Shown piece by piece: positions 28,187 through 53,965 of a stretch of 64,000 nucleotides of DNA. The position numbers were made by a program, and so were the translations under genes. Source of the DNA: Cutibacterium porci (lineage in GTDB: Bacteria > Actinomycetota > Actinomycetes > Propionibacteriales > Propionibacteriaceae); NCBI RefSeq assembly GCF_009696315.1, contig NZ_VUMG01000001.1:124001-188000 (forward strand). Reading direction: 5' to 3'. The first letter of the stretch is position 1. Each line of letters opens with the position of its first letter. The notes beneath the pieces are model-generated. The model was not told the DNA's origin. It worked only from the letters and a program-made list of their open reading frames with translations, and searched no databases.

Positions 28187-28206
28187 TGTCCAGAAATATC
28201 TGGACA
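28187..28206. promoter_or_regulatory. 20-bp palindrome upstream of the biosynthetic cluster
   Basis: TGTCCAGA and TCTGGACA form perfect 8-bp arms around the centre AATA. The element lies about 65 bases before the probable start of the first cluster gene. It is the best operator candidate for the cluster; the response regulator at the cluster's far end is a plausible but untested binder. Confidence 0.5.
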
Positions 28207-28272
28207 TGGCTTTCCGGGACGTTTGATGATCATTCCGTGCTAATTCCACAACGCGCGGAGAGGTCGTCAGAG

Positions 28273-28908
28273 GTGAGGATCGAAAACATTCCCACACGGC
28301 TGCTCGTGTGGCACGAACAGACCGATCCGCACAAGCTCCTACACATCAGGAACGCCGTCGAGGACGACGCACCGCTGCCCCCCATCGAGGCCATGGCCAT
28401 CGGCCACAGGTTCCTCGTCCTCGACGGCGCCCATCGCGCACAGGCTCATCATGAGAGCCACCTGCCCCACATCCGCGCGCGTCTGCACACCTTGCCGTTG
28501 ACGGCGGAGGTCCCCGGGTGGAGTCACGCGATCCCACTTGACGCTGCGATCAGGCTGGCTCGACTCGCACTGCCCGCCGGCAACCGCGGCCAGGCAGACA
28601 TCGTCATCAATGGAGTGCGCCGTCACCTCGGCACCACCTCGCGACGACTGCGGGACCAGTACCTCTTTAGTCACAAGATCGCCCGCATCGCCTATGCCCA
28701 TGGCATCACGCCTCTCGAGCCGGACAGCTGCGTCGAGCACGCCCACGACTCGATCGTCATGACGTGGCAACCCCCGAATCTGGGCGATTTATGGGCCATG
28801 GCCAACGACATGGGACCGCTGCCGGCAACCGTCACCCGGTTCGCTCCCCTCCTGGCCCATGGCTCCGTCAACACATCGACGATGACACCCGTCATCCCCG
28901 CGGCGTGA
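28273..28908 (+). CDS. ParB/Srx-fold protein, likely SbnI-like free serine kinase
   Basis: About 211 residues from a GTG at 28273 with GGAGAGG nine bases upstream; an in-frame GTG at 28186 would extend it by 29 residues into the palindrome. The N-terminal half has the ParB-superfamily pattern ending in RFLVLDGAHRAQAHH (DGAHR at about residues 51-55). SbnI of staphyloferrin B and archaeal SerK, which make O-phospho-L-serine, are ParB-superfamily proteins with this kind of DGxHR motif. As SbnA- and SbnB-like genes follow in the same cluster, the likely role is to supply O-phosphoserine. A DNA-binding or nuclease role cannot be excluded from sequence. Confidence 0.65.
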   Translation: MRIENIPTRLLVWHEQTDPHKLLHIRNAVEDDAPLPPIEAMAIGHRFLVLDGAHRAQAHHESHLPHIRARLHTLPLTAEVPGWSHAIPLDAAIRLARLALPAGNRGQADIVINGVRRHLGTTSRRLRDQYLFSHKIARIAYAHGITPLEPDSCVEHAHDSIVMTWQPPNLGDLWAMANDMGPLPATVTRFAPLLAHGSVNTSTMTPVIPAA

Positions 28909-29006
28909 CGCCGCACCCCAGTTCTGCCCCAAAGCTGGATTCAGACTCATCACCGCAGCAACACTCGTGACGGACGAGAAATTCAGCGATTCCCCCAGGA
29001 GAAATC

Positions 29007-29906
29007 ATGGTCACCAGTACAAGTCCTCTCACTGTGACAAATGTGTCGAAATCATTTAAGGGTTCCGCCGGTGAAACCATCCACGCTGTGCAGGATATTT
29101 CCTTCACCATTGGTCGTGGCGAGGTCGTTGCCTTTCTCGGACCGAACGGCGCCGGAAAGTCGACCACCATCGACATGGCCCTCGGACTGACCCGCCCCGA
29201 CAGCGGCCGGATCCAGGTCTTCGGCACCGATCCGCTCAAGGCCGCCCGCTCCGGGCGCTGCACCGCCATGACCCAGACCGGCGGTCTTCTCCCTGACATG
29301 ACGATCCGTCAGACGATGGAAATCATCTCGTCCCTGTACCGCGGCTCCGACATGAACACCTGCATGGAACGAGCGAGGCTCACCCACTTGGCCAACCGTC
29401 AAGTGTCCAAGTGCTCCGGCGGTGAACGTCAGCGCCTGCGTTTCGCCCTGGCGCTGCTGCCCGACCCCGACTTCCTCATCCTCGACGAGCCCACCGCGGG
29501 CATGGACGTCGAGGCTCGCCGGGACTTCTGGGACGAGATCCACGAGGACACCCGCCGCGGCCGCACCATCCTCTTCGCCACCCACTACCTCGGTGAGGTC
29601 GACGAATTCGCCGACCGGGTCATCCTCATCAAGGAGGGCCGAATCATCGCCGACGACACCTCCGACGCCATCCGCACCCTCTCTGGCGGCTGCACCGTCA
29701 CGGCGACCATCCCGAACTTCTCCCTCACCCAGCTCGACCTGCCCGGCACCCAGCTCATCAAGCAAGACGGCAGCCGAATCAACCTGCATCATCCCGACTC
29801 CGACGCCCTGGCCTCGAAGGTCATGCAGCTCGGAGGAACTGACCTGCGCGTCGTCCCTCGAAGCCTCGACGACGCTTTCCTCGCCCTCACCTCCAAGGAG
29901 TCCTGA
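29007..29906 (+). CDS. ABC transporter ATPase
   Basis: A 299-residue ABC ATPase of the DrrA/drug-export type. Walker A is GPNGAGKST (residues 45-53), the signature is SGGERQRLRFA, Walker B is PDFLILDEPTAGMD, and the switch histidine is in ATHYLGE. The extra C-terminal 70 residues are typical of export ATPases. Start ATG is preceded by CAGGAG. The permease gene begins one base after the stop. It probably exports or gives self-resistance to the cluster product. Confidence 0.92.
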   Translation: MVTSTSPLTVTNVSKSFKGSAGETIHAVQDISFTIGRGEVVAFLGPNGAGKSTTIDMALGLTRPDSGRIQVFGTDPLKAARSGRCTAMTQTGGLLPDMTIRQTMEIISSLYRGSDMNTCMERARLTHLANRQVSKCSGGERQRLRFALALLPDPDFLILDEPTAGMDVEARRDFWDEIHEDTRRGRTILFATHYLGEVDEFADRVILIKEGRIIADDTSDAIRTLSGGCTVTATIPNFSLTQLDLPGTQLIKQDGSRINLHHPDSDALASKVMQLGGTDLRVVPRSLDDAFLALTSKES

Positions 29907-29907
29907 C

Positions 29908-30705
29908 ATGACCGCTGCACAGACCATCGCGCCAGCTATCGCTCGCCGTCCCCGTCGTCAGTCCTCGATCTCCCTCAAGTACCTCTGGTGCGAACTGCGC
30001 CGCCCATTTCGCCGCTCGACGCTGATCTTCAACCTCGCGCTGCCCGTCGTGCTCTATCTCGCGCTTTTTCGCACCAACCATTCCGCCAATCTGCCGGGAG
30101 GCAACTTCGCGATGTGGATGATGATCGGCATCGCCGTCTATGGTGCGGCAACCTCCGCCACCAGCTACGCGGCGTCGATTTCTGTCGACGAGGCCAACGG
30201 CTGGACCCGCACCATCCGCCTCACCCCGTTGTCGTCGGTGGGTTATGTGCTCATCAAGGTGCTGTGCGCCATGGTGATGGCTCTGGCCCCCACCCTGCTC
30301 ATCGGCATCCTCGGCATGCTGACCGGAGCCCACGGCACCCTGCGTGCCTGGGTCGTCGGACTGACGGCTGCCTGGCTCAGCTCGGCAATTTTCTCCGCCT
30401 TCGGACTGGCGATCGGCCTGTCCCTGCGCCCCGACGTCGTCATGCACATCCCCGGCCTGGTCATCACCGGACTCGCGTTCCTCGGCAACGTCTTCATCCC
30501 CCTCTCCGGGACGATGCTCACCATCGGCCGCTGGAGCCCCGCCTACGGCATCACCGCTCTGGCCCGCTACCCGCTGACCAACGGCATGGACATCGGCGGT
30601 GGCCACGACTCCCTGTCCGCAGCCATCATCGGCACCCTGTGCTGGTTCGCAGGGTTCGTCTTCTGGGCGTCGCGCCGGTTCGGCAAGAGCACCGGTCGTC
30701 AGTGA
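29908..30705 (+). CDS. ABC-2 type transporter permease
   Basis: A 265-residue membrane protein with about six hydrophobic segments and the ABC-2 layout: a cytoplasmic N-terminus of about 30 residues, a first segment (LIFNLALPVVLYLALF), a central TIRLTPLSSVGYVLIKVL region and the late motif SPAYGITALARYPLTNG. It is the membrane partner of the ATPase just upstream. Start ATG at 29908, with AAGGAG eight bases upstream inside the ATPase gene. Longer in-frame versions run antisense-like through the ATPase gene and are not real. Confidence 0.9.
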   Translation: MTAAQTIAPAIARRPRRQSSISLKYLWCELRRPFRRSTLIFNLALPVVLYLALFRTNHSANLPGGNFAMWMMIGIAVYGAATSATSYAASISVDEANGWTRTIRLTPLSSVGYVLIKVLCAMVMALAPTLLIGILGMLTGAHGTLRAWVVGLTAAWLSSAIFSAFGLAIGLSLRPDVVMHIPGLVITGLAFLGNVFIPLSGTMLTIGRWSPAYGITALARYPLTNGMDIGGGHDSLSAAIIGTLCWFAGFVFWASRRFGKSTGRQ

Positions 30706-30733
30706 CATTTCGACCTGCGAAAGGAACAATGCG

Positions 30734-31663
30734 ATGAACCGCATCGCCGTCGTCGCTGCCGGACAAGGCGCGCAGAAACCTCGCATGCTCACCGGGTGGC
30801 TCAAGCTTCCGGGTGTCCGAGAAGCCGTCACCTCCTGGTCGGAACAGGCAGACGTCGATCTCATCGAACTCGGCACCAAGGCCGACGCCGACACGTTGGC
30901 GGCTACCGAGAACGCGCAGCCGATCCTGGTGTGCCTCGGTGTCCTCATCTCGGACATGCTGGCCGACAAGGACCTCGTGCTCGCGGGTCATTCCGTCGGC
31001 GAATTGACGGCAGCCTGTCTCGCGGGCGTCGTCGATCCGGGAACGGCGGTGACCCTCGCCCGTCGACGTGGACTTGCGATGGCGCGAGCATGCGCTGCCG
31101 AACCCACGACCATGGCTGCCGTCATCGGCGGTAATCCGGACGACGTGGTCTCGCGCCTGACAGACCTCGGTCTCAGCGCCGCCAACATCAATGGTGCCGG
31201 GCAGATCGTCGCTGCCGGACCGGTCGACGCCGTCGCCAAGCTCGTCGCAGAACCACCCGCCGGGACTGCTGTGAAGCAACTGCATGTCGCCGGGGCCTTC
31301 CACACCGCGTACATGGAACCTGCCCAGGAAGCATTCGCCCAGGCCGCTCATGAGATCACCTTCTCGGACCCGAAGTACCCGATCATCTCGAATCTCGACG
31401 GTCAGGAGGTGCGCTCGGGTGACGAGCTGCGCGATCGACTCATCGCCCAGGTAACAGCTCCCGTCCGATGGGATCTGTGCCTCAAGCAGCTGGCGGCACG
31501 ACAGCCTGACCTTGCGATCTCAGCACCGCCGGGAAAGGTCCAGGCCTCCCTGCTCTCGCGTCAGATCCCTAGCCTTCGGACCCTCTGCGTCACCACGCCT
31601 CGTGACGCCACCCAGGCAGCTGCACAGCTCGAAGAACTCTCCCCGGTTCTACAGGAGGCGTGA
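30734..31663 (+). CDS. FabD-like malonyl-CoA:ACP acyltransferase
   Basis: A 309-residue acyltransferase that would load malonyl (or a starter acyl) units onto the cluster's carrier proteins. It has the oxyanion motif GQGAQ (residues 10-14), the nucleophile serine S87 in GHSVGE and the catalytic histidine in VAGAFHTAYM, in order and spacing normal for FabD. Start ATG at 30734 with AAGGAA just upstream. The stop overlaps the start of the AMP-ligase gene. Having its own copy suggests the cluster does not depend on primary FabD. Confidence 0.9.
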   Translation: MNRIAVVAAGQGAQKPRMLTGWLKLPGVREAVTSWSEQADVDLIELGTKADADTLAATENAQPILVCLGVLISDMLADKDLVLAGHSVGELTAACLAGVVDPGTAVTLARRRGLAMARACAAEPTTMAAVIGGNPDDVVSRLTDLGLSAANINGAGQIVAAGPVDAVAKLVAEPPAGTAVKQLHVAGAFHTAYMEPAQEAFAQAAHEITFSDPKYPIISNLDGQEVRSGDELRDRLIAQVTAPVRWDLCLKQLAARQPDLAISAPPGKVQASLLSRQIPSLRTLCVTTPRDATQAAAQLEELSPVLQEA

Positions 31664-33126
31664 TGCTCATCCCGGAATACTTCCTCGAAACTTGCTCCCG
31701 ACGCCCCGAGCATCCTGCGATCATCGACCGCGACGAGGTCGTGACGTGGTCCAGCCTCGCAGTCCGCATCGAGGCGGTCCGGCGCTGGTTGCGCGATAAC
31801 GGGGTGCGACGCCACGACCGGGTCGTCCTTCAGGCCCCCACCAACGTGACCACCGTCTGCCTGGTGTGGGCGTGTCTGCTCGATGGACTCACCGTCGTCC
31901 CGGTCCACCAGGACCTCACTCCGACCCAGGTGCAGCATGTAATCGACGACTGCGACCCCGCATTGGTCTGCGCAAGCACAGACCTCGTCGAAGCAGTCAC
32001 CGTCCCCAACGGGCACGCCGTTACTCCCCCGACGGGGTTAGTCCACGCCGACCTCGATCCTTGTCCTTCCCGAGCTGACGCCGACGATCTGGCACTCCTC
32101 ATCTACACGTCGGGCACCACGGGAGCTCCCAAGGGAATCAGGTGTCCCCACCGGCAGGTGGCCACCGCAGCACGAACCGTCCACGACTGCTTGGGGTACC
32201 GGGAGGACGACGTCATTCTCTGCCGCCTTCCGTTGTCCTTCGACTACGGGCTCTACCAGGTCCTCATGTCAGCCATCCGCGGTGGGACCGTCGTCCTCCA
32301 CGGTGGTGGGCCTCGCGACCGCAATCTCGTGCGTGACATCGCTTGTCACGGCGTCACCGTGGTCCCGGTCGTACCGTCGATGGCAGCGATGCTGCTCACC
32401 CTGCAGCGCCGCGATCGGTTGGAGACAACGATCCGGCTGTTCACCAACACCGGAGCTCGCTTGTCCCCCGAGGTCGCCGATCAGCTTCTCGCCGCTTTCC
32501 CCGGATCCCAGTACGCCTCGATGTACGGCATGACCGAGTGCAAGCGCATCTCGATCCTTCCGGTCGACGAGTACAAAGACCATCCGGACAGCGTCGGCAG
32601 AGCCCTACCCGGTACGCGAGTACAGATCGTCAATGACTGTGGTGTCGCGCTCCCGGCCGGCGAACACGGGGAGATCACGGTGTCCGGCCAGACAGTGATG
32701 GACGGTTATTGGAACGTCCCTAACACCTCTACCGGCCGATTCCGGCCTACTCCCGATGGACTCACCCTCTTCACCGGAGACCGAGGGTGGATGGATCCGG
32801 ACGGGCGCATCCACCTCTTGGGACGTGACGACGACATCGTCAAGCACCACGGCGTGAGGATCTGCCTGCAGGAGATCGAGGTGGCGGCCGAGGCCATCCC
32901 GGGTGTCGACGCGGTCATCGCCCTCAAGCCCGACTCTGACTCTGCGCCACTCGAGGTCGCCTACTGCGGGACTGCCAGCCCAGAGTTCCTCGCACAGCAA
33001 TTCGACCTCGTCCTCGACCGCGCTCGACGACCCCAACTCATCCACCTGCTACCTCAGATCCCCCTGACCCGCAACGGAAAACCAGATCGAGCAGCTGCCG
33101 CCGCGGCCGTCCACGCACGGTCGTGA
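31663..33126 (+). CDS. AMP-dependent acyl/aminoacyl ligase (ANL superfamily)
   Basis: A 487-residue adenylate-forming enzyme. Core motifs are all present: LLIYTSGTTGAPKGI (ATP loop), SMYGMTECKRI, TGDRGWMDPDGRIHLLGRDDD (about residues 367-387, hinge) and the C-terminal catalytic lysine in LTRNGKPDR. It probably activates a carboxylic or amino acid and loads it on the small carrier protein encoded next. The substrate is unknown; diaminopropionate or a derived acid is one possibility given the neighbours. The start at 31663 follows AGGAGG and overlaps the fabD-like stop. Confidence 0.88.
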   Translation: MLIPEYFLETCSRRPEHPAIIDRDEVVTWSSLAVRIEAVRRWLRDNGVRRHDRVVLQAPTNVTTVCLVWACLLDGLTVVPVHQDLTPTQVQHVIDDCDPALVCASTDLVEAVTVPNGHAVTPPTGLVHADLDPCPSRADADDLALLIYTSGTTGAPKGIRCPHRQVATAARTVHDCLGYREDDVILCRLPLSFDYGLYQVLMSAIRGGTVVLHGGGPRDRNLVRDIACHGVTVVPVVPSMAAMLLTLQRRDRLETTIRLFTNTGARLSPEVADQLLAAFPGSQYASMYGMTECKRISILPVDEYKDHPDSVGRALPGTRVQIVNDCGVALPAGEHGEITVSGQTVMDGYWNVPNTSTGRFRPTPDGLTLFTGDRGWMDPDGRIHLLGRDDDIVKHHGVRICLQEIEVAAEAIPGVDAVIALKPDSDSAPLEVAYCGTASPEFLAQQFDLVLDRARRPQLIHLLPQIPLTRNGKPDRAAAAAAVHARS

Positions 33127-33197
33127 CGTGCGGTTCCTCGTCCCACAGATGCTCCACCCGGCAGACGCCCCGCCTCACAGATGGAAGGAAACCTCTC

Positions 33198-33431
33198 ATG
33201 ACCCAGGCCGAGTTCAACCAGTTCATCGAAACCACCTGCTCAGCGACGATTCTTGACGCCGATCGCCCCTTCGTCGATCAAGGCATCGACTCGCTCGGAA
33301 TGCTCACCCTCATGGTGGCCGTCGAGGACCAGCTCGGGATTGAGCTCGACCCCGAAGCCCTCGCCGACGGCCGCGGCTCGACCCCGTCCGGCCTGCTTTC
33401 CCTCATCGAACAGTCGAAGGCGACGGTGTGA
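33198..33431 (+). CDS. Acyl carrier protein 1
   Basis: A 77-residue carrier protein. The phosphopantetheine attachment serine is S32 in DQGIDSLGMLTLM, with the usual acidic helix II after it. Start ATG at 33198 with AAGGAAA upstream; a longer in-frame reading from 33123 overlaps the ligase gene. It sits directly behind the AMP ligase, so it most likely carries the starter unit, while the second carrier protein serves elongation. This division is inferred from gene order. Confidence 0.88.
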   Translation: MTQAEFNQFIETTCSATILDADRPFVDQGIDSLGMLTLMVAVEDQLGIELDPEALADGRGSTPSGLLSLIEQSKATV

Positions 33432-33435
33432 CGAC

Positions 33436-34620
33436 ATGACGACCACCACACGTCGCCGCGTGGAGATGCCTCAGTTGTTTGATCGGATCCCCGGAACCAT
33501 CTCCCTGTCCGGTGGCTTGCCTGATCTGACGGTTCTCCCCGCAGCCAAGATCGCCGAATTGACCTCGCGAATGCTACGGCTGGGGTCGCGCACCCTGCTT
33601 CAGTACTCCACCCCGACCGTCTCGTCCTCCCTGATCCCGGCCATCCTCGACCTCGCAGCACGGACCGGTATGACTCCCGATCCGGACCATCTCGTGCCGA
33701 CCGCCGGATCGCAACTGGGCATGATGATGGTCGCCAACATTCTCGACGGCGACGCAATTGTCTGCGACAGCCCCACCTATCCCGGAGCTCTGGCGGCCTG
33801 GGCGTCTGCCGATATGGACCTCATCGGTGTTGCCGGCGACGAGGAAGGACTCAACCCCGACGCCCTGGCCCATACCATCTCCGACCTGCGCGGCAGAGGT
33901 CGTCGTGTCGCGGCCGTGTACACCACCCCCACCTTCCAGAACCCCACTGGTTCGGTGCAGTCCGAGGCTCGTCGCGCCGACATCCTCGAGATCTGCGCCA
34001 GGAACGATCTGCTCGTCATCGAGGACGACCCCTACGGGATGCTCTCCTTCGAGGGTCGTACCTGGCCAGCACTGAAATCTATGGATCCCGACCGGGTCAT
34101 CTACCTGGGCACCTTCTCCAAGGTGTTCGCACCGGGAGTGCGATGCGGATGGATCGATCCCCCGGCAGACCTTGTTGACGATCTTCGCGCCATGTGCGAG
34201 GTCATGACCCTCTCCCCGTCCGCCCTCAACCAGGCCATCATCGGCGAGTACCACCGCCGCCATGGATGGGACGACCTGCTGGAGGCATATCGAGCCTCCT
34301 ACCGAGACCGGGCCCAGGCGCTCAGTCATGCCCTCGAGTCCGAACTGACCCAATCCGGACAGCCGACCACGTGGACGTGGCGGACACCCCAGGGCGGCTT
34401 CTACTTGTGGCTGGAGAACGTCTCCGGTGTCAGCGGAGCTGACGTCGCTCGTCGTGCCGCAGCGAATGGAGTGCGAGTGGTACCCGGCCTCCACTTCGAC
34501 CCCGCGGGGCTCGACTCGCCGTCGATGCGGGTGTCCTTCAGCTACCCGCGCCCGACCGAGTTGACCGAAGGAGCACGACGACTCGCCGCCGCCCTCGTGG
34601 AGACAGGAGTATCAGCATGA
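33436..34620 (+). CDS. PLP-dependent aminotransferase (class I/II)
   Basis: A 394-residue fold-type I aminotransferase of the 2-aminoadipate/LysN-like group (MocR-type catalytic domain without the HTH). Visible features are TAGSQLGMMMVANIL, the region VYTTPTFQNPTGS, the aspartate in IEDDPYGML and the PLP lysine in LGTFSKVFAPGVRCGW. It follows ACP1 by four bases and overlaps the LanB-like gene. It might add or remove an amino group on a starter or on a pathway keto acid; the substrate is unknown. The longer frame upstream overlaps ACP1 and is spurious. Confidence 0.88.
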   Translation: MTTTTRRRVEMPQLFDRIPGTISLSGGLPDLTVLPAAKIAELTSRMLRLGSRTLLQYSTPTVSSSLIPAILDLAARTGMTPDPDHLVPTAGSQLGMMMVANILDGDAIVCDSPTYPGALAAWASADMDLIGVAGDEEGLNPDALAHTISDLRGRGRRVAAVYTTPTFQNPTGSVQSEARRADILEICARNDLLVIEDDPYGMLSFEGRTWPALKSMDPDRVIYLGTFSKVFAPGVRCGWIDPPADLVDDLRAMCEVMTLSPSALNQAIIGEYHRRHGWDDLLEAYRASYRDRAQALSHALESELTQSGQPTTWTWRTPQGGFYLWLENVSGVSGADVARRAAANGVRVVPGLHFDPAGLDSPSMRVSFSYPRPTELTEGARRLAAALVETGVSA

Positions 34621-37977: not shown

Positions 37978-38996
37978 AACTCTTCGACCGAGACGCCGTC
38001 GAGAAGGCCCTTGCCGACCGCCACGAAGAGGTGCTCAACGCCGTCCAGAGTGCCTACATGCTCCATTCGAGCGACGAGACCTCCCTGCCCTTCTCGACCT
38101 TCCTTCGCCCCAAGGGCCATCCGGATGACCGCATCATCGGCCTTCCCGCCCACGTCGGCGGCGAGTTCCGGCTCGCCGGAATCAAGTGGATCTCGTCGTT
38201 CCCGGGGAACCTCAACCTCGGGATGCAGCGCGCATCGTCGGTACTCATCCTCAACAGCCTCGAGACCGGCTATCCGACAGCTCTACTGGAATCCAGCCGC
38301 ATCTCTGCCACCCGAACGGCGGCATCAGCGGCCCTGGCCAGCGCCACCCTCCACGGCACCAGCGACCGGGTCGACACGATCGGGGTCATCGGGTGCGGCA
38401 CGATCAACATTGCGACGATCGACTACCTGTTCCACGTGCATCCTCAGATCACCACGGTTATCGCCGTCGACGTCCAGGCTGAACGTGCTCAGAACTTCGC
38501 GCGCATCGTCAAGAAGTCCCATCCCTCGACGAACATTCACGTCGCCACGGACCTCGACGCGGTGCTGCGAGAGGCTGACACCGTTGCGATTGCTACCACC
38601 GACTCCAGCCACTGGCTCACTCTGCCGCCGTGGGAGAAGTCTGGTCACCAGGTCGTCCTGCACACCTCCCTGCGAGATCTGTCGGTGGCCTCGCTCCTGG
38701 CCGCGACGAATGTCGTGGACGATCCGGACCATGTCTGCCGCGAGGCGACCACGCCGGATCTCGCCGCCCAGCAGACCGGCAATCGCGACTTCATCGCGGC
38801 GCGAATCGGCGATCTACTCCTGGGCACACCGCTGGAGACCAGCCCCAACTCCCGCATCATCTTCTCCCCATTCGGTCTCGGAATCCTCGACCTCGCAGTC
38901 GCGTCAGTCGTCATGTCCTCTTCGTCGGAAGCCGTCGAGATTGATGGATTCGATCCCGGAACGCACGCAACGAGCACGATCGAGGTGAACAGATGA
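37974..38996 (+). CDS. sbnB: SbnB-like N-(2-amino-2-carboxyethyl)-L-glutamate dehydrogenase
   Basis: A 340-residue NAD-dependent enzyme of the ornithine cyclodeaminase/mu-crystallin family. It has [20 protein letters not shown] in the substrate region and the Rossmann motif [17 protein letters not shown]. SbnB oxidatively splits ACEGA to L-2,3-diaminopropionate and 2-oxoglutarate. Plain ornithine cyclodeaminase is an alternative by family, but adjacency to SbnA makes SbnB the better call. Start ATG at 37974 overlaps sbnA; a longer frame from 37716 is a reading through sbnA. Confidence 0.9.
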
Positions 38997-46131: not shown

Positions 46132-46799
46132 CCGCACTCGCGAATCCGTGCCGCTCGTCAGTGGAGGTGGGGACGGTTGACGTTCCGGACGCCGATTCCA
46201 TCGAATGCGTCCTCACCCACCACTGTCACACGCCTCGTGATCGTGGCGGGCACCCCACCTCCGTGTCGGGACGCTATCTCCTGCAACAGGCAGCGGAGCT
46301 TCTGCACGGCACGCAGATCGGGGAGCGCCCGATGACCGACTCGTCACGACGCTGGTACTGGCCTGGGACCCCCTGGCACGGTTCGGTGTCTCACATTCCC
46401 GGATGGAGCCTGTCCGGTCTGATCACCGACGGGCACATCGGCGTCGACGTCCAGGACGCCCGGGAGCGACCCGGCGCACTCGACTTCATCGCTGACCTGG
46501 TCAGGCTGCCGCGGCGGGCGTCCATTCTCGAGTTCGCCGAGTGCGAGGCACTCGTAAAGGCATCCCGTCTGACCAAGGAGACCTTCGGTCACGTGAGGCT
46601 GCCACAGTGGCGACCCGGATGGCGTCACGTCGTCGACGAGTTCTGGGTCTGGAGCACTGAAGTCACAGGCGTCGGCGCGGTGGCCGTCACCTCCGACCGG
46701 CCCCGAAAGATCCGATGGTGGCGCTGCTACGCCGAAACGCATGGCCAGCTCAGCGCACCGGAACCCCTCAATGGCTTCAACACTGGAGACATCTCATGA
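46128..46799 (+). CDS. 4'-phosphopantetheinyl transferase
   Basis: A 223-residue Sfp-type enzyme that would activate ACP1 and ACP2 by adding the phosphopantetheine arm. It has HGSVSHIPGW, the metal-binding GVDVQDARER (D107) and a variant of the (W/F)xxKE(A/S)xxK motif, FAECEALVKA, in which the first lysine is replaced. The fit is moderate but the order and spacing are right. It overlaps both neighbours by four bases. Confidence 0.75.
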   Translation: MTALANPCRSSVEVGTVDVPDADSIECVLTHHCHTPRDRGGHPTSVSGRYLLQQAAELLHGTQIGERPMTDSSRRWYWPGTPWHGSVSHIPGWSLSGLITDGHIGVDVQDARERPGALDFIADLVRLPRRASILEFAECEALVKASRLTKETFGHVRLPQWRPGWRHVVDEFWVWSTEVTGVGAVAVTSDRPRKIRWWRCYAETHGQLSAPEPLNGFNTGDIS

Positions 46800-47926
46800 C
46801 CTGTTACTCAAGGCGGATCTCGGGAATCGAACGAGGCTACCTCCACATTGCCACCCGAGGACCCCACCCCACCATCCACACCGTCATCGATTTCGACGGA
46901 ACCGTCCCCGCCGAGACCTGGCATCACGCGTCTGGGGTCGCTACCGCTGCCAACCCGGGGATGGCGGTCGTCAGGAGATCACGACGCTGGGCCCACAATT
47001 CACACCCGTGCCCGGTCGTGTTCCACGAATGGGTCGACGATCCCAACGACGTCAAGGAATTCCACGACGACATCAACCTGGTCACGGGTCCTGTGACAAC
47101 GGTGCACGTCTTCCAGGACGAGGACCGCACCAGAGTCGTCCTGGCGGCCAGCCACGCTGTGACGGACGGTCGAGGGATGGAGCGTTTCCTCGTCGACCTG
47201 TTGGCAGCCGTGGACGGTCGTGAACCGGTCGGCAGCCCGGACGTCGAGACCGATGTCGAAGCGGCACGGTCCCTCGGTGCCAGTTCAAGACCCCAACCCA
47301 ATGTGACCCGCCGGGATCCGGTTCGCTCCCCGTTGGGGGGAAAGGACAACCACCGGCACTGGACATCCCGAGCCTGGCCTTCGGCGCCCGGTGCGATGAG
47401 CGCCCGGATCGGCGCGGCGGTGGCCCGAATGATCGATCACCCGGTGATGGTCATCATCCCCGTCGACCTGCGGAGACATCTGCCGCACCTGAGGTCAACG
47501 GCGAACCTGAGTGCGCAGCTGCCATTGACGATCCAGCCCGGTCAGCCGTGGAAGAGCATCCACGGTCACCTCTTGATGGCTCTGGCACGCAAGCACGACC
47601 TCGCCATGATCAGCGAGGACTTCCGCCAGAACAACCCGTTCACGACCACCTTGGTCGGGAGCCAGACCGACGGACTCGACGGGAATTTCCCGTGCGCGGC
47701 CATCATCTCCGACCACGGAAAGCTCGACATCTCCAGGTTCCGGACGTCCACCCTGACACCCGTGGCCATGCACAGCCTTCCGATGCTCGTTCCCTACTCG
47801 GGCATGTTCATCAGCAGCTCCACGGTAAACGACGCCACAACCGTCACCATCGCCCACCGTCTCGACGACGACCCCCAGATCATCGACACCTTCTTCGACC
47901 TCATCAACGACCAGATGGCGGACTGA
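46796..47926 (+). CDS. Condensation-domain-like acyltransferase
   Basis: A 376-residue stand-alone protein of the NRPS condensation/PapA acyltransferase superfamily, with the catalytic motif HxxxDG as HAVTDG at residues 120-125 and a late DLRRHLPHLRSTANLSAQLP region. There is no adenylation module in the cluster apart from the AMP ligase. It could transfer the acyl chain from a carrier protein to an amine or hydroxyl, for example diaminopropionate. It competes with the GNAT protein as the joining enzyme. ATG at 46796 overlaps the transferase stop. Confidence 0.78.
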   Translation: MTCYSRRISGIERGYLHIATRGPHPTIHTVIDFDGTVPAETWHHASGVATAANPGMAVVRRSRRWAHNSHPCPVVFHEWVDDPNDVKEFHDDINLVTGPVTTVHVFQDEDRTRVVLAASHAVTDGRGMERFLVDLLAAVDGREPVGSPDVETDVEAARSLGASSRPQPNVTRRDPVRSPLGGKDNHRHWTSRAWPSAPGAMSARIGAAVARMIDHPVMVIIPVDLRRHLPHLRSTANLSAQLPLTIQPGQPWKSIHGHLLMALARKHDLAMISEDFRQNNPFTTTLVGSQTDGLDGNFPCAAIISDHGKLDISRFRTSTLTPVAMHSLPMLVPYSGMFISSSTVNDATTVTIAHRLDDDPQIIDTFFDLINDQMAD

Positions 47927-47960
47927 CGCCTCCACGACCCACTCCCCAGGAGATCAACCC

Positions 47961-49403
47961 ATGACCACCCAAGACGTCCTGGCTCCCACATCCATCACCA
48001 CTCATCCACCCACAGCTAAGTCCGATGCACCGCCGCGCAACACCGTGAGCTCGATGGTGGTCGCAATGATCGCCACCCTCATGGTCATGCTCGACACGAC
48101 GGTCGTCAACGTCTCACTCCACGCAACCACAGCCCGATTCGGAAGCATGAGCAATGTGCAGTGGGTTCTCACGAGCTACCTGCTGGCCTTGTGCGCCACC
48201 ATGACGGCATCTGCCTGGATCATCGATCGCATTGGCCCGCGACGCACCTTCATCACCTCGATGACCGCGTTCCTCATCGGATCCGTGATGTGTGCACTCA
48301 GCCCGTCAGTGTGGACACTGGTGACGGCGCGGGCTATCTCGGGAGCGGCTGCCGGAATCATCATCCCGACATCCTCCGTTCTGCTCATTCGTGGGGTGCC
48401 ACGCGAGAGCCTCGGAAAGGTCCAGTCACTCAACGGCAGCGTCCAGCTCATCGCTCCACTCATCGGACCAACTGTCGGCGGCCTCCTCGTCGACCGATGC
48501 GGTGGCTGGCCCGCGATCTACTGGGCGAACGTACCGATTGCTGCTGTTCTCCTCGTCGTAGCCCTACGCATTGATCCGGATGAGGCCCACATCGGACACC
48601 GCAAGCTCGACGTCCTCGGCCTGTTGTCGGGAAGCGCTGCCATCGTCCTGACAGTGTTGGGGGTCTCGCGCATGGGAACCACGTCGCGCAACATGACCGC
48701 CTTCACGACCATCGCCCTGCTGGCCATCGTCTCCTGGGCGATCTTCCTCCTCCACATCCGCCGTGCCACTGAACCACTGCTTGACGTCTCGCTGTACCGA
48801 AATCCGGTGTATTCATGGTCGAGTTTCAACGTTGCGGTTCTGGGATTCGGTCTCTACGCGCCCATGGTCGTCATGCCTCTGTATCTGGAGGCGACGCGTC
48901 ACCTCGACACCGTTCGAACCGGTCTCGTCATGTCAGTGTCAGGCATCGGCGTCATTGTCGCCGGCGTTCTGTGCACCACGCTCATGAAGAAGATCGGCGG
49001 GGGATTCACCATGGCCCTCGGCATCACTCTCAGTCTCGTGGCAACCCTGCCTCTGGTGTGGCTGACTGGCACCACCTCCTACCTGCTGTTGGCGGGATGC
49101 CTGGCAGTGCGAGGGGCTGGAATCAGCCTGACGATCGTTCCGGCTATGACGAGGGCATTCGAGTCAATATCCCGGACTGCCATGGCCGATGCCTCCGCAC
49201 AGTTGAACCTTCTCCAACGGATTGGTGGCACCATCGCCACCGCGGTAATCATCGCCGTCATTCATCACCAGGCAATGCTGGTGCGTGGTCTCAGTCCCGC
49301 GGTGTTCTCTTATGCGAACATCTGGATCCTCGGCGCCACGTCCGTGACGTTGATCCCCGCGTTCGCCCTGGCCCGTGCGGAACGCAGGTGCTCTGAGCTG
49401 TGA
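47961..49403 (+). CDS. MFS exporter, DHA2 (14-segment) family
   Basis: A 480-residue major facilitator drug/proton antiporter of the EmrB/QacA type. The first segment carries MVMLDTTVVNVSLHA, the motif typical of DHA2, and motif A-like IDRIGPRRTFI follows after segment 2. About 14 hydrophobic segments fit the length. Start ATG behind AGGAGA. It probably exports the cluster product, together with or in place of the ABC exporter. Confidence 0.92.
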   Translation: MTTQDVLAPTSITTHPPTAKSDAPPRNTVSSMVVAMIATLMVMLDTTVVNVSLHATTARFGSMSNVQWVLTSYLLALCATMTASAWIIDRIGPRRTFITSMTAFLIGSVMCALSPSVWTLVTARAISGAAAGIIIPTSSVLLIRGVPRESLGKVQSLNGSVQLIAPLIGPTVGGLLVDRCGGWPAIYWANVPIAAVLLVVALRIDPDEAHIGHRKLDVLGLLSGSAAIVLTVLGVSRMGTTSRNMTAFTTIALLAIVSWAIFLLHIRRATEPLLDVSLYRNPVYSWSSFNVAVLGFGLYAPMVVMPLYLEATRHLDTVRTGLVMSVSGIGVIVAGVLCTTLMKKIGGGFTMALGITLSLVATLPLVWLTGTTSYLLLAGCLAVRGAGISLTIVPAMTRAFESISRTAMADASAQLNLLQRIGGTIATAVIIAVIHHQAMLVRGLSPAVFSYANIWILGATSVTLIPAFALARAERRCSEL

Positions 49404-49486
49404 TGTGAACTGTTTCGACTTCTGCGGTACCCCGTATGCTCTATCCGGCGCTGACTGAAGCGTCCGAGCACTCGAAGAGGCCTGCC

Positions 49487-51934
49487 ATGAAGTCCCACAT
49501 CCCGTTCACCTTGGCCAGTCCGACATGGTACGACGTCCCTTGGGCACCGCATTCCCCCTGCCTCACCGGAGACATCTCGGTGATGCCGGCAGACGCGCCC
49601 GGGTGGACGTCGACCGTTGACGGACCGTGGCAGATCCACCTCCCACCCCAGCCACCAGGAATGACGTACGGGTGGAAGGTCCATGTAGCAGCCACCCCGC
49701 AGGATCTGGAATCCGTTGGCTCCATCGTGGCGCGATGGTGCGTCCACAAGGACACTGCCTTCAAGGTCCTACGCACACGGCGGCTGGTCCATGCCAGCCA
49801 GCTCAAGTACGCAGATCGGGTCCAAAGTGGCAAGGTGTGCACCTGCTATCCCGCCCCGGAGCTCCTCGAGGAGTTCTGCGTCGGCCTGGCCGACCTTCTT
49901 CGTGACGTCGACTCGCCATCCATTCACGGGGAGTTGCGAGTCGGCTCCTCTCCGGTGTGGTTGCGTCACGGCAGCTTCCAGGAAGCATGGGCGCTCTCAC
50001 CGACGGGTGCACCCACCCCGGTCCTGCCGGGCACGACAATTCCCGATCGCAGGGGAACAACGAATGATCGAGCTCACGACACACCGTGGATCCAACAGCT
50101 TCGCAGGACCAACCCGACCAGCACGGTTCTTCCCATCCATGACGTCACACTCCTCCACCGTTCAAATGCAGGAGGGGTGTATCGGGCGCTGTGGCAGGAC
50201 GACCGTCCTGTCGTAATCAAGGAGGCCCGACACCTCTGCGGGTTAGACGCCGACGGCATCGACGCACCAGCCCGGCTACGTCACGAATTCCAGGTGTTGC
50301 AACGTCTTGCCCCACACCGCGTCGCCCCGCAGCCCATCGATCTTTTGGAAACACCGGAGGGTACCTTCCTCGTGATGGGGTTCCTCGAGGGCATGACCCT
50401 CTACCAGGAAATGGCTCGCTTCCACCCTCTTTCGGGACACGGTTCCAGCCGAATGTCGCATGCCGAGTTCTCCCGTTGGCGTCAAGACACAATGGAAAGT
50501 CTCAAAGATCTGATCCAGATTCTGTCTGAATGTGGAATTGTTCACGGAGACCTTCATCCAGCGAACTTGATCCACGTCGGAAATGATCTCTTCGCAACTG
50601 ACTTCGAGTCCTCGTCCATTGATGGGGTGAGTGTCTCGACCGGATTGACCGCACTCCCCTTCAGATCCGACAAGGATGCCTGCGATCTGGAGGCCGTCGC
50701 ACACATTCACGCCCTCCTGCTGGACCCGACGTCAGGTCCTGTGCTCACCCGACGCCCAGAACTTCGATCCTTCGTCACCCGCGCGGCCCTTGAGGACATC
50801 ACGATGACCGCTCCTCCGGCTCCCGACATGATGCCGCATCTCGAACACCTGTGCACCGAACTGGCCGACGGGATCCGAGCCTCGGCCACACCGTCGAGAA
50901 CGGATCGCCTCTTCCCCTCCGACCCATACCTGTTCCAGCATCCAGGAGCTGAGCTCGGTCTCATGCACGGGGCTGCAGGAGTACTGGCTGCCTTGTCGGC
51001 CACGGGTCATGAAATCGACCCGGATCATGTCTCCTGGCTCACCAATCGCCTGTCGTCACAGCCAATCCTCCTGCCTGGACTGGCCGACGGGGTCGAGGGC
51101 ATCGCGCTGGGGCTGTCCATGTGCGGCGAAGGGGACCTTTCCGCGCAACTCCTTGACCGTACCGGCGTCCTTGATTCCTCATCGCAGACACCGATCGACC
51201 CCTCGCTGGGAACTGGTCTGGCGGGCCGGGCTGCTGCCCTCCAGACGTTGTCGCGACGACTCTCGTCGGATCGCCTCGCCCAAGCTGCATCGACACTTTG
51301 GGAAAGACTTGCCACCGTGATTCGCGACGCCGACGGGCCCTTGCCGAACGGCCTGTTCACCGGATGGGAAGGCGTGGGTCTGGCCGTGCTGTCTTCGCCG
51401 CTGCCCGATCGCCACCACCTCGCGAATATTGCACTGGAGTTGGCGCTGTCCACGACCGTCACGATCGACGGTGCACTCATCTCCGAAGCTGGAGGCGTTC
51501 AGTGGCCGTATCTTGGCCAAGGACCAATCGCATGCGGACCCCTGGCAGAGGCACTCGGAGACGCGGGCACCGTTGCTTCCGTGGCCCGGACCTGTCGTTC
51601 TCCGTTGACCGAGTCGTCCGGGCTCCTCCTGGGACGTTCAGGACTACTCGTCGTGCTTCGCCAACTCATCGGCGACGACAACGCCGCTGTGCAGCGCCAC
51701 ATGATGCGCCTTGCGTGGTCGATCACAGGCGACGGCACCACCAGCCACATGTTGGGACTCCACGGCTTGCGTTTTTCCTCCGACGTCGCGACGGGGTCTG
51801 CCGGTGCCCTGCTTACTCTCAGCGACCACCCATGGAAGAACATCGCGAAAATTCTCGGAATTCTTGGTGACAGGTGTCATGAGGACTTGATGACGATCGG
51901 ATCTGTTGCAACCCCATGGGCTCCGGAAGACTAA
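49487..51934 (+). CDS. Class III lanthipeptide synthetase (LanKC)
   Basis: About 815 residues in the three-domain LanKC order. The N-terminal lyase region has HASQLKYADRVQSGKVCTCY, akin to the SGKF-x-YP stretch of LanKC/RamC proteins. The kinase domain (about 220-440) has the ATP lysine in VVIKEARHL, the catalytic loop HGDLHPANL and DFE in place of DFG. The C-terminal cyclase-like domain (from about 480) lacks the Cys-His-Cys zinc ligands, which separates class III from class IV. It would phosphorylate, eliminate and cyclise the Ser and Cys residues of the peptide encoded 63 bases downstream. I choose the ATG at 49487 with AAGAGG upstream over the ATG at 49436. Confidence 0.9.
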   Translation: MKSHIPFTLASPTWYDVPWAPHSPCLTGDISVMPADAPGWTSTVDGPWQIHLPPQPPGMTYGWKVHVAATPQDLESVGSIVARWCVHKDTAFKVLRTRRLVHASQLKYADRVQSGKVCTCYPAPELLEEFCVGLADLLRDVDSPSIHGELRVGSSPVWLRHGSFQEAWALSPTGAPTPVLPGTTIPDRRGTTNDRAHDTPWIQQLRRTNPTSTVLPIHDVTLLHRSNAGGVYRALWQDDRPVVIKEARHLCGLDADGIDAPARLRHEFQVLQRLAPHRVAPQPIDLLETPEGTFLVMGFLEGMTLYQEMARFHPLSGHGSSRMSHAEFSRWRQDTMESLKDLIQILSECGIVHGDLHPANLIHVGNDLFATDFESSSIDGVSVSTGLTALPFRSDKDACDLEAVAHIHALLLDPTSGPVLTRRPELRSFVTRAALEDITMTAPPAPDMMPHLEHLCTELADGIRASATPSRTDRLFPSDPYLFQHPGAELGLMHGAAGVLAALSATGHEIDPDHVSWLTNRLSSQPILLPGLADGVEGIALGLSMCGEGDLSAQLLDRTGVLDSSSQTPIDPSLGTGLAGRAAALQTLSRRLSSDRLAQAASTLWERLATVIRDADGPLPNGLFTGWEGVGLAVLSSPLPDRHHLANIALELALSTTVTIDGALISEAGGVQWPYLGQGPIACGPLAEALGDAGTVASVARTCRSPLTESSGLLLGRSGLLVVLRQLIGDDNAAVQRHMMRLAWSITGDGTTSHMLGLHGLRFSSDVATGSAGALLTLSDHPWKNIAKILGILGDRCHEDLMTIGSVATPWAPED

Positions 51935-51997
51935 GAGACGTCCACAGAAAAGACATCCCTGATGGATGCCATCGACAATGCGACGCAAGGAGTTTTC

Positions 51998-52102
51998 GTG
52001 TCGATTGAAAGCATGCAATCCTTGGAAATGGATGACGTTTCCTCGTCCGATCTGGCCGGCTTCCCGTGCTCTGTCCTGTCCATCGGTGCTTGGTGCACGT
52101 GA
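51998..52102 (+). CDS. Lanthipeptide precursor peptide, class III, short core
   Basis: A 34-codon gene starting with GTG, with AAGGAG five bases before the start. The first half, SIESMQSLEMDD, matches the class III leader motif (ILELQxLE type) needed for LanKC binding; DVSSSDLAG follows. The end is FPCSVLSIGAWCT, containing Ser25-x2-Ser28-x4-Cys33, a labionin pattern. The predicted core is only about 10 residues, as in lipolanthines, whose N-terminus is acylated. It lies between LanKC and the sensor kinase in a different frame from the kinase. An ATG at 51962 would extend the leader by 12 residues but has no ribosome binding site. Confidence 0.88.
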   Translation: MSIESMQSLEMDDVSSSDLAGFPCSVLSIGAWCT

Positions 52103-52160
52103 TTTAACATTCCCTGATCCGTATCTGGCGATCCGGGAACCTACCTACTACGCTGTCCCC

Positions 52161-53351
52161 GTGTCACGGACGCGATCCCTCTTCAACGGCTCCGGACGTC
52201 TGCTCATCGGCTCCGGAGTCATTGTCTTTCTCCTCCTCGCCGTGGTGGTGTTGACCATGGTCACCCCGAAGAGTCCGGACTTTTCGGTGTTCGACCGCGT
52301 ACTCGGTATCGCAGCAGGGGTTGTCCAAGCAGTTGGGTTCATGTGGGTTCAGGCCAGGGTGGTCCGCCATGGTGGCCAGGCGCACAGCGCGCGGTTGGCC
52401 TTGGGCACCGGTGGATACTGCTTCGGTTGGGGGATCGTCGTCCTCGGTGTCATCAGTCTATGGTTTATGCACTCATGGGCACTGTTCGGCACCTCGATCA
52501 CTCTTGCCCTACTACTTGTTCCCGGCGGATGGGGCCAAGTGGCTACACTCGTGGTTCTCCTCCTCGGACTCGCGGACATGTTCCTGGTCCATCCATCCGC
52601 CACTTCAATTGCTTTGCTTCTGCTCATCACCATCGCGGTGACGATCAACCTGTACGCCCTCACCCGACTCGCCAGCACCCTCATCGAGGTTCGTTCCTCC
52701 CAGGAGGAAATCGCCCGCCTCCGCATCGACGCCGAACGTCACCGCATCTCCCGTGACCTTCACGACATCATCGGCCGAACCCTCGTCGCAACATCCATGC
52801 GCCAGCAGGCCGCCCTCCACCTCGTCGACCGCGACCCCGTACGCGCCAAGGAACAGCTCAACGCCGCACACGACGCCATCACGGACGGGCAGAAACAGCT
52901 GCGCTCCATCATCCAGGCGGAGATGAACACCAGCCTTCCCGACGAGATCACCGACGCCCGGTCCCTCTGTGATCGTCTGCGCATCCGGTTCGATCTGACC
53001 GACGAGGGGCACCCACCCGAGCCATTCGACTCCGCCGCAGCCCAGGTGCTGCGGGAGGCCATCACCAATATGCTCAAACACAGCACAGCAAACGCCTGCC
53101 AGGTGACGATCACGCCGACCGACATGAGCATCACGAACAATGGTTGTTCCGCACTACGGTCATCCGACGGTGGCCATGGCACCGGCATCGCCCATCTTCG
53201 CTCCCAGATTGAAGATCTGGGAGGATCCCTTGTGGCATCCCACCCATCGCGAAGTACATTTCAGCTCAGGTGCACCTTTCCTGCCCCACAATCGTCGAAT
53301 ATCCGACCCTCGAACCTCCAATCCTCGAATATCGCCACTGTGACAGGGTGA
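52161..53351 (+). CDS. Sensor histidine kinase (NarL-partner type)
   Basis: A 396-residue kinase with five hydrophobic segments in the first 170 residues and almost no external loop, so it may sense a membrane-associated signal. The HisKA_3 phosphoacceptor is His201 in RISRDLHDIIGRTL, and the ATPase domain has LREAITNMLKHS and GHGTGIAHLRSQIEDLGG. I choose GTG at 52161: TACGCT at 52149-52154 lies six bases before it, fitting a leaderless transcript, and a longer frame from 51966 would overlap the precursor gene and encode a non-kinase-like start. The C-terminus ends in a repeated SN(I/L)xx tail. Confidence 0.87.
   Translation: MSRTRSLFNGSGRLLIGSGVIVFLLLAVVVLTMVTPKSPDFSVFDRVLGIAAGVVQAVGFMWVQARVVRHGGQAHSARLALGTGGYCFGWGIVVLGVISLWFMHSWALFGTSITLALLLVPGGWGQVATLVVLLLGLADMFLVHPSATSIALLLLITIAVTINLYALTRLASTLIEVRSSQEEIARLRIDAERHRISRDLHDIIGRTLVATSMRQQAALHLVDRDPVRAKEQLNAAHDAITDGQKQLRSIIQAEMNTSLPDEITDARSLCDRLRIRFDLTDEGHPPEPFDSAAAQVLREAITNMLKHSTANACQVTITPTDMSITNNGCSALRSSDGGHGTGIAHLRSQIEDLGGSLVASHPSRSTFQLRCTFPAPQSSNIRPSNLQSSNIATVTG
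53295..53339 (+). repeat. Three 15-bp tandem repeats at the kinase 3' end
   Basis: Three 15-base units begin TCGAAT, TCGAAC and TCGAAT at 53295, 53310 and 53325 and encode the five-residue repeat SN(I/L)xx at the end of the histidine kinase. The array stops 18 bases before the response-regulator start. It is in frame, so a change in copy number would lengthen or shorten the tail without a frameshift. Confidence 0.75.
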
Positions 53352-53356
53352 AGCCA

Positions 53357-53965
53357 ATGACCACACGAATTCTCATAGCCGAGGACATCGAACTGGTGGC
53401 AGAGGCCTTCCAGGCGCTGCTGTCGATCGAGCCTGAGTTCGAAGTCGTCGGACGGGTCAGCCGTGGCGACGAACTCGTGACCTGCGCGACCCGTCTCATG
53501 CCCGATCTCATCCTCGCCGACATCGACATGCCGGGGGCCACCGGCATTGAGGCGACGAAGACGTTGCGCAGCATGGGGTACAAGGGCCACATCATCCTGC
53601 TGACGGCCTTGCCCGGGAGCGGCCACCTGCACGCCGCCCTGGCGGCCGGGGCTGACGGTTATCTCCTCAAGGCAATGACCGGGGCATCCCTCATGAACGC
53701 GATACGAGCGGTCCAGAACGGCCATACCGCCATCGACCCCGACATCGCCGCCACGGCGATGCGGAAGGGACCGTCACCCCTCACCCAGCGCGAGACCGAG
53801 ATCCTCAAGATGGTCGCCGCCGGCTTCTCAACAGCACAGATCGCCGACCAGATGTACCTCAGCAAGGGAACCGTCCGGAACTACCTGTCGATGGTGATGT
53901 CGAAGCTCGAAGTCGACTCCCGCACCGCGGCGGTGACCAAGGCGCAGCACGAAGGGTGGCTCTGA
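53357..53965 (+). CDS. Response regulator (NarL/LuxR family)
   Basis: A 202-residue two-component regulator. The receiver domain has the phosphoacceptor Asp55 in LILADIDMPGATG, threonine in ILLTALPG and Lys105 in GYLLKAMTG. The LuxR-type helix-turn-helix occupies residues about 144-190 (LTQRETEILKMVAAGFSTAQ). The start at 53357 follows the kinase stop by five bases. It most likely regulates the biosynthetic cluster, of which it is the last gene; the palindrome at 28187 is a candidate target. Confidence 0.93.
   Translation: MTTRILIAEDIELVAEAFQALLSIEPEFEVVGRVSRGDELVTCATRLMPDLILADIDMPGATGIEATKTLRSMGYKGHIILLTALPGSGHLHAALAAGADGYLLKAMTGASLMNAIRAVQNGHTAIDPDIAATAMRKGPSPLTQRETEILKMVAAGFSTAQIADQMYLSKGTVRNYLSMVMSKLEVDSRTAAVTKAQHEGWL

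Follow-up and report, generated by a model that had tools for sequence, protein, structure and literature searches.

Whether genes for a lanthipeptide and genes for an acyl chain that lie in one block also serve one product is the question raised by a locus of Cutibacterium porci (assembly GCF_009696315.1, contig NZ_VUMG01000001.1, positions 124,001 to 188,000; this stretch of 64,000 nucleotides is called the window, and positions are counted from its first base). On its plus strand, at 28186-53965, lie 23 genes, many of them overlapping, which include a class III lanthipeptide synthetase (LanKC) with a precursor peptide (LanA), a type II acyl line, genes for L-2,3-diaminopropionate (L-Dap) and a LanB-like protein. 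A sequence-only reading of the same DNA had counted about 22 genes, with strand and overlaps as found here, and had assigned them to a single lipolanthine-like acylated lanthipeptide. The comparisons described below point to a different explanation, which is considered fairly probable: the cluster would consist of two parts, a core making a polyketide-diaminopropionate-amino acid product and a lanthipeptide that would be the pheromone of the core operon.

A first scan of genome contigs with the LanB-like protein gave no match. As a marker this protein was then recorded in five of 197 genomes of the family, the own genome included, and at full length only in the window, in [Pseudopropionibacterium] massiliense (G070) and in Propionibacterium acidifaciens (G081), both of which carry the cluster. 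A scan with an alignment of the GcvT-like protein matched 39 stretches; the seven loci drawn from them included new ones in Flexivirga meconopsidis and four Rhodococcus genomes (the LanB-like marker being full length in 4 of the 37 genomes of that genus), and a GcvT-like profile run over the 392 genomes of the genus of genome G691 gave ten matches at E 1e-30, G691 included. Six of the nine new ones have all 18 genes from the ABC transporter to the MFS exporter; two (G945, G1110) are cut by contig ends and one (G856) is divergent. The 15 clusters counted hereafter are those of the window, massiliense, acidifaciens, Flexivirga, the four Rhodococcus genomes, G691, G953, G883, G1124, G1146, G1163 and G1063; this count leaves out G945, G1110 and G856, and the 3' side was read in all 15, the 5' end in two of the four Rhodococcus clusters.

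All 15 clusters hold the same core, namely the type II line with a ketosynthase and chain-length factor fused in one protein (KS-CLF), the LanB-like protein, SbnA and SbnB, a GNAT fusion, and the GcvT-like and condensation-like proteins. Gene order is common to them, save for SbnA/SbnB, which are relocated in massiliense and Flexivirga. No ABC pair was seen in the cluster stretches read from Flexivirga. The P. acidifaciens cluster is without the MFS gene and its KS-CLF (L008 7517-9812, minus strand) is split into two reading frames, the break falling, in the numbering of the window protein, near residue 245-251; both features reflect decay or sequencing error. The named hosts belong to Propionibacteriales, Micrococcales and Mycobacteriales, at least three orders. 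The G856 variant (L105/L106), with matches of 40% for the GcvT-like protein and 47% for KS-CLF, has kept SbnA/SbnB, the GNAT fusion and the acyl line; neither a homologue of the LanB-like protein nor one of the MFS exporter was found in it, and it is possibly a shortened or ancestral pathway.

Compared over these 15 clusters, the LANTHIPEPTIDE cassette is separable from the core. LanKC stands beside the core in six (window, acidifaciens and the four Rhodococcus clusters) and is absent from the stretches read at the other nine. In these six clusters LanKC is followed by homologues of the kinase (34-41%) and of the response regulator (58-63% across the stretch that was read), so that LanKC, kinase and regulator homologues co-occur in 6/6 versus 0/9; the best response-regulator match in the nine LanKC-less clusters was 33%, in two of them, on the opposite strand. 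None of the window's genes outside the cassette is restricted to LanKC-bearing clusters, and therefore no dedicated step for ligating peptide and acyl chain is visible. The core product very likely does not need the lanthipeptide. Searched genome-wide, a profile of the cassette LanKC proteins, which gives 1312 and 1369 bits for two of its own members, found other LanKC genes at 243 bits in massiliense and 246 bits in G691, and nothing above 35 bits in Flexivirga; the window LanKC alone gave 87 bits in massiliense and 447 bits in acidifaciens. Further LanKC-like genes of massiliense lie on G070:C1 near 3116000, 3136000, 757000 and 2680000, and a distance of 60-80 kb separates two of these from the polyketide cluster.

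On a 14-taxon tree built from seven core proteins and rooted with G856, the presence of LanKC needs at least three changes. The window and massiliense group together with 100% support and acidifaciens joins them with 100%, while one inner node reaches 47%; a smaller unrooted tree has the same two groupings with a different order of Flexivirga, Rhodococcus and G691. Where the cassette is lacking, other regulators are often seen: past the MFS gene, five of the nine clusters (Flexivirga, G691, G883, G953, G1124) encode a SARP-type regulator, and massiliense has an orphan kinase beyond SbnB. Short peptide frames resembling Sec signals, with ribosome-binding sites, were noted near three LanKC-less clusters (L007 15471-15632; L032 20286-20456, minus strand; L067 about 9474-9647, minus strand), two of them ending in a Cys-containing tail. 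The control rate of such peptides, counted with these sites, was 50 in 553,989 bp or 0.09 per kb, none was found at five other LanKC-less clusters and a sixth (G1063) had one unconvincing frame; because of that rate and the absence at the five, these peptides are not relied on.

The single acylated lanthipeptide assumed in the sequence-only reading has to be weighed against this distribution. The acyl chain would be put on the N-terminus of the LanA core by the GNAT fusion or the condensation-like enzyme, with Dap and the LanB-like protein as tailoring; LanKC and LanA probably share an operon with the acyl line and the GNAT, which agrees with this, as does the lipidation of microvionin-type peptides by GNATs (PMC13060382). 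Lipolanthines (microvionin, nocavionin, goadvionin, nocaviogua) share with the present cluster a class III synthetase and a short precursor; in them acyl assembly is linked to the peptide, and avionin is formed through a Cys decarboxylase from a C-terminal Cys (PMC10435860). Nocaviogua ends in a decarboxylated Avi residue (PMC10435860), and LanD is needed for the formation of AviCys (PMC10373908). In the window precursor, however, Cys is followed by Thr (...AWCT), and the only PF02441 protein found in the genome, where the flavin Cys decarboxylase LanD was sought, is a 414-residue frame on another contig (C12), CoaBC-like by length. The GNAT fusion, the condensation-like enzyme and the acyl line, moreover, are kept in the nine clusters without LanKC, and the LanB-like protein groups with PEARL-like ligases. 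Acylation of the LanA core is thus judged quite unlikely, and it was rejected on the missing LanD, the Cys position and the separability of the cassette.

LanKC and a precursor, both named in the sequence-only reading, are indeed present. LanKC starts 32 bp after the MFS gene, the two being probably in one operon, and LanA has a GTG start at 51998, with AAGGAG six bases upstream, and 34 residues ending in CSVLSIGAWCT. The four Rhodococcus precursors likewise have 34 residues and the same S-x2-S-x4-C-x spacing, which we take to be that of labionin; the candidate precursor of P. acidifaciens has 31 residues and a different spacing.

An indication of what the peptide might do came from Rhodococcus. 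Three loci have a LanA core of the type SGVSVNGWC or SAVSVNGWC plus one residue, and that of R. ruber IEGM 1391 (L034) has a near-identical leader with a different core, SSYSTMGICP. Between L033 and L034 the LanA leader (residues 1-24) is 96% identical and the core (25-34) 40%; both have the ring residues S25, S28 and C33, and six of the seven other core residues differ. The adjacent kinase is 58% identical over its first 186 columns and 95% over the remainder. At the DNA level the two loci average 96.0% identity over 140 windows of 150 columns, of which five fall below 85%: one of 82% inside LanKC and four consecutive ones (44-68%, the only ones below 70%) that cover L033 19244-19836, from the LanA core to within the sensor part of the kinase. 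No such drop occurs in the control pair L033/L036, which is 81.8% identical overall and has the same core type (sensor 84%, kinase 85%). Signal and receptor thus appear to have been exchanged jointly, and leader, kinase domain and regulator to have stayed as they were. Variable signal cores and receptor membrane parts beside conserved leaders and kinase domains are known from agr and comQXPA, and joint exchange of ligand and receptor is the typical pattern of such peptide pherotype systems; the same joint diversification of core and sensor, with leader and kinase domain staying alike, is seen in this one Rhodococcus pair. Unlike in agr and comQXPA, the signal here would be a class III lanthipeptide and its target a polyketide operon.

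Because of this exchange, the view that the lanthipeptide is the ligand of the adjacent kinase, at first held slightly less than even, is now rated as probable, and both the acylated lanthipeptide and a second alternative have lost weight. The latter holds that two products are made: a class III lanthipeptide, which would act as antibiotic or surfactant and have a two-component regulator to itself, and beside it the product of an independent polyketide-PEARL pathway; the kinase would sense something else. Class III loci can have a regulator of their own, and the clean separation of cassette and core would be expected here too. Yet LanA core and kinase sensor are exchanged jointly where leader, kinase domain and regulator are alike, and another regulator gene is present in six of the nine clusters without the cassette; two separate products are therefore thought unlikely. 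Signalling had been one of the options offered in the sequence-only reading for the product of the whole cluster; it is now favoured as the role of the peptide.

The LanB-like protein was re-assessed. The Lant_dehydr_N domain that had suggested the name is present, but its implied function is not borne out: PF04738 was found in 10/10 of the LanB-like proteins scanned and the elimination domain PF14028 in 0/10 (a genome-wide search for PF14028 was silent, but so were the control genomes, which makes it uninformative). In an alignment of 14 rows Y130, R133, D493, E515 and E756-x-R758 are invariant, and R33 is kept in 13 rows, with a gap in the remaining one; Y130 and R133 align with TbtB. TbtB and GodF, presumably the enzymes named in the titles of the structure entries, are the sole solved structures related by profile. 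Positions described for BhaB and TglB (Glu-x-Arg ATP site, N-terminal Arg, Tyr-x2-Arg of the tRNA helix) fit these residues (PMC11962472), the equivalence to BhaB being one of spacing and motif, without an alignment to BhaB; the BhaB helix residues R197 and Q201 have no conserved partner. A class I dehydratase was ruled out by the missing PF14028, the PEARL residues and the neighbouring genes of nonribosomal peptide synthetase (NRPS) and polyketide synthase (PKS) type; a LanC partner was also not found, as PF05147 matched nothing in the genome at E 0.001 (LanKC itself reaching 22.1 bits against a cut-off of 23.2). The conserved residues indicate that the protein is in all likelihood a PEARL-type aminoacyl-tRNA amide ligase.

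The substrate of this putative ligase could in principle be LanA, extended at its C-terminus by one amino acid, and core and cassette would then meet chemically in the LanKC-bearing strains. Known PEARLs do act on the C-termini of ribosomal carrier peptides (PMC12945691, PMC11962472), but the present one is found in all nine LanKC-less clusters counted, and a nonribosomal substrate receives threonine through SnaE, which is PEARL-like and encoded in an NRPS/PKS cluster (PMC11212132); extension of LanA is accordingly regarded as very improbable. Among plasmids, 13 of the 16 records matching the LanB-like protein cover at least 80% of it. Three of these neighbourhoods were viewed, two with adjoining NRPS-type genes and one with carrier-protein and AMP-binding genes farther off. 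On a plasmid of Streptomyces sp. CL7 (L038 14962-22562) a mini-operon that encodes an adenylation enzyme, a pyridoxal-phosphate (PLP) enzyme and an acyl carrier protein (ACP) stands between two PEARL-like genes and near a LanM gene, likely another nonribosomal PEARL pathway.

A fused KS-CLF had already been proposed and is present: Cys/His/His is found in the first half of 6/6 aligned proteins (the halves were compared by eye), and in the second half the facing Cys is kept in 3/6, with Glu in place of the second His in 6/6. Ketosynthase with Cys-His-His, degenerate chain-length factor, ACP, ketoreductase and dehydratase, the components by which a reducing type II PKS is recognised, are thus all found. 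The acyl line had been described as full; its KS-CLF, ACPs, FabG-like and FabA/FabZ-like members stand, whereas 'full' does not, because none of the block's genes could be recognised as an enoyl reductase. Assignment of L-Dap synthesis is supported by SbnA (394.8 bits against an NCBIfam equivalog cut-off of 349.95) and SbnB (347.3 against 326.9). The likeness of a third gene to SbnI, also claimed earlier, is weak (E 0.012); this protein is 31% identical to one with a sub-cut-off ParB_N match beside the Flexivirga cluster. The two exporters, an ABC pair and an MFS protein, were confirmed by family models. A further protein is, by its motif, taken by us to be a phosphopantetheinyl transferase.

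The condensation-like protein had no family match, and weaker profile matches led to domains of tyrocidine and bacitracin synthetases (E 0.009-0.025). A ureido-forming condensation enzyme (EHHxxHDG) was ruled out, as 7/7 aligned proteins have an H-x3-DG type motif without the extra Glu and His. For the GNAT fusion, a class-wide search gave a full-length match in 2 of 394 genomes, the own one included (the other being G691), and plasmids gave no match; in these searches the full-length fusion was seen only in the present cluster family.

From these genes we infer the following order of steps, product structure and signalling. The starter would be primed by the AMP-forming ligase and ACP1, and the chain would be extended by the malonyl transferase, ACP2 and KS-CLF and processed by the FabG-like reductase and the FabZ-like dehydratase; it should be unsaturated, because there is no enoyl reductase. 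L-Dap would be supplied by SbnA/SbnB, and acyl chain and amine may be joined as an amide by the condensation-like enzyme or the GNAT fusion. The PEARL-type ligase would then add one amino acid from aminoacyl-tRNA at a free carboxylate, and the product would leave through the ABC and/or the MFS exporter. LanKC would make a short labionin-type peptide from LanA; the neighbouring kinase would perceive this peptide through its membrane part, and the response regulator would switch the operon on.

Several observations weigh against the pheromone explanation. The LanKC-bearing lineages that are independent number three, the core-sensor exchange is one event in one genus, and the genome-wide check for absence of the cassette LanKC covers massiliense, Flexivirga and G691 only. 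In the LanKC-less G1146, G1163 and G1063 neither SARP nor kinase was recognised, and two of the LanKC-less SARP clusters also hold a distant kinase/response regulator pair. P. acidifaciens departs in precursor spacing, in the missing MFS gene and in the two frames of its KS-CLF. The probable shared operon of MFS and LanKC would suit a joint product as well, no exporter or peptidase dedicated to the lanthipeptide was identified, and the GcvT-like and GNAT-fusion proteins are without an assigned role. Ordinary class III loci, ram/amf for example, can also have a response regulator next to LanKC.

The features of the cluster are collected in Table 1. At its borders, the gene of a mechanosensitive channel ends at 28094 on the left and that of a glycerate kinase lies at 54002 on the right. 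Just left of the block, a SUFU-domain protein (26419-27111, minus strand) has a LacI regulator and a solute-binding protein as neighbours.

Table 1. Features of the cluster, with positions in the window and the basis of each assignment
Feature	Position	Strand	Basis or remark
Block of 25.9 kb, between mechanosensitive-channel and glycerate kinase genes	28097..53999		Flank genes by Pfam
SbnI-like (ParB/Srx-type, possible O-phosphoserine supply)	28186..28908	+	PDB SbnI 5ujd/6nr6 E 0.012, weak; no Pfam match
ABC transporter ATPase	29007..29906	+	PF00005 E 3.1e-30
ABC transporter permease	29881..30705	+	ABC2_membrane_4 below its cut-off; true start few codons inside
Malonyl-ACP transacylase, FabD-like	30734..31663	+	PF00698 E 9.9e-20; fabD E 7e-51, below cut-off
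AMP-forming ligase / stand-alone adenylation enzyme	31660..33126	+	PF00501 E 8e-77
Acyl carrier protein 1	33198..33431	+	PP-binding
PLP aminotransferase, class I/II	33430..34620	+	PF00155 E 3e-25
LanB-like protein, read as PEARL-type aminoacyl-tRNA amide ligase	34617..36929	+	PF04738 only; conserved residues
SbnA, 2,3-diaminopropionate synthesis	36913..37977	+	TIGR03945 above cut-off
SbnB, 2,3-diaminopropionate synthesis	37974..38996	+	TIGR03944 above cut-off
Beta-ketoacyl-ACP reductase, FabG-like	38993..39781	+	TIGR01830 E 4e-83, below cut-off
Acyl carrier protein 2	39877..40173	+	PP-binding
Dehydratase, FabA/FabZ-like	40170..40676	+	PF07977 E 7e-23
GNAT domain fused to long domain of unknown fold	40707..42749	+	Pfam GNAT
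GcvT-like protein	42776..43780	+	PF01571 E 1.4e-15; B. subtilis GcvT 1yx2 E 1.3e-10
Fused ketosynthase / chain-length factor	43777..46131	+	Two ketoacyl-synthase regions; C170/H302/H338 invariant in 6/6
Probable phosphopantetheinyl transferase	46128..46799	+	No Pfam/NCBIfam match; motif by eye
Condensation-like acyltransferase, SHAVTDGxG motif	46796..47926	+	Profile match CmnI E 5e-4
MFS exporter, DHA2 type	47961..49403	+	TIGR00711 above cut-off
LanKC, class III lanthipeptide synthetase (separable cassette)	49436..51934	+	NF038151 441.6 bits, cut-off 575
LanA precursor, 34 residues, core SVLSIGAWCT	51998..52102	+	GTG start with AAGGAG
Histidine kinase, HisKA_3, hydrophobic N-terminal half (proposed receptor)	52161..53351	+	PF07730 E 5e-14
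NarL-type response regulator	53357..53965	+	NarL model E 1e-35, below cut-off

The edges of the block were placed by alignment with sister species, in which the left flank is alignable up to about 28096 and the right flank, in most, from about 54000. The right flank was matched in eight of the nine genus genomes, the own one included (7/8 sister genomes); the ninth (G104) had no flank match and is uninformative. At the seven sister loci the two flanks lie 47-731 bp apart, and the cluster is absent or in fragments. L074 768-1498 (G083) holds a piece of the ABC permease (69% over 84 residues, E 2e-33) with pieces of the ABC ATPase and the response regulator, and L075 1020-1498 (G035) a piece of the ATPase (E 1.5e-9) and one of the regulator; these fragments correspond to 29043-30615 and 53367-53912 of the window. 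L076 has a single 30-bp match to the cluster, and none of 140 shuffled controls (20 per locus) fell below E 0.002. Since fragments of both ends occur in two of the seven loci, the cluster must have belonged to an ancestor of at least some members of the genus and was later deleted in those; as the fragments come from the ABC and regulator ends, gene order was probably the same in the copies that were lost. A recent mobile island was withdrawn as an explanation, given that the end fragments in two sister loci indicate deletion of an older cluster; no tRNA was found within the window, and the only candidate for mobile-element ends at the borders was an 11-bp repeat located inside two genes.

Each part of the cluster has known relatives. 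Type II polyene lines (ishigamide, aryl polyenes) likewise have KS, CLF, ACP, ketoreductase and dehydratase; here, in contrast, KS and CLF are in one chain, and Dap, PEARL and GcvT-like genes are added. The L-Dap branch is shared with the sbn genes of staphyloferrin B, but the Dap genes lie beside a polyketide-PEARL line and no siderophore synthetase was recognised in the block. The ram/amf loci with RamR combine LanKC, a short LanA and a nearby NarL-type response regulator, as in the window, which differs in having a histidine kinase and a cassette tied to a polyketide core. Another relative is the sna cluster for threopeptin of Stackebrandtia nassauensis, where an amide bond is made by a protein annotated as 'lantibiotic dehydratase' that works in an NRPS/PKS setting with carrier-protein chemistry (PMC11212132). 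That cluster, however, has modular NRPS and PKS and a ureido-forming C domain (EHHxxHDG) instead of SHAVTDGxG, and the gene list of the article names no L-Dap genes, type II KS-CLF or LanKC (PMC11212132), all of which are present here.

For signalling by class III lanthipeptides nothing relevant was among the top-ranked literature matches. The gene combination, called undescribed in the sequence-only reading, also found no description in literature searches covering part of the matching papers. The components are known. What appears to be new is their combination, the occurrence of PEARL and Dap beside a fused KS-CLF, and the pherotype-like variation of a class III lanthipeptide. Taken together, we give somewhat better than even chances to a labionin-type class III pheromone dedicated to the core operon, with pherotypes arising by joint exchange of LanA core and kinase sensor and with SARP or other regulators standing in for its LanKC-LanA-kinase-regulator cassette from one actinobacterial lineage to another, together with a new family of compounds built from a carrier-bound acyl chain, L-Dap and a residue from aminoacyl-tRNA.

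With its iterative type II line containing a fused KS-CLF, its L-Dap supply and its aminoacyl-tRNA ligase, the cluster family has a product that is not predictable from any single known pathway. The labels 'lanthipeptide' and 'lantibiotic dehydratase' would mislead genome mining twice in this one cluster. Natural test pairs exist in the near-identical Rhodococcus clusters with different cores and sensors and in clusters with versus without the cassette. The findings suggest that a class III lanthipeptide can act as a pathway-specific pheromone with pherotypes.

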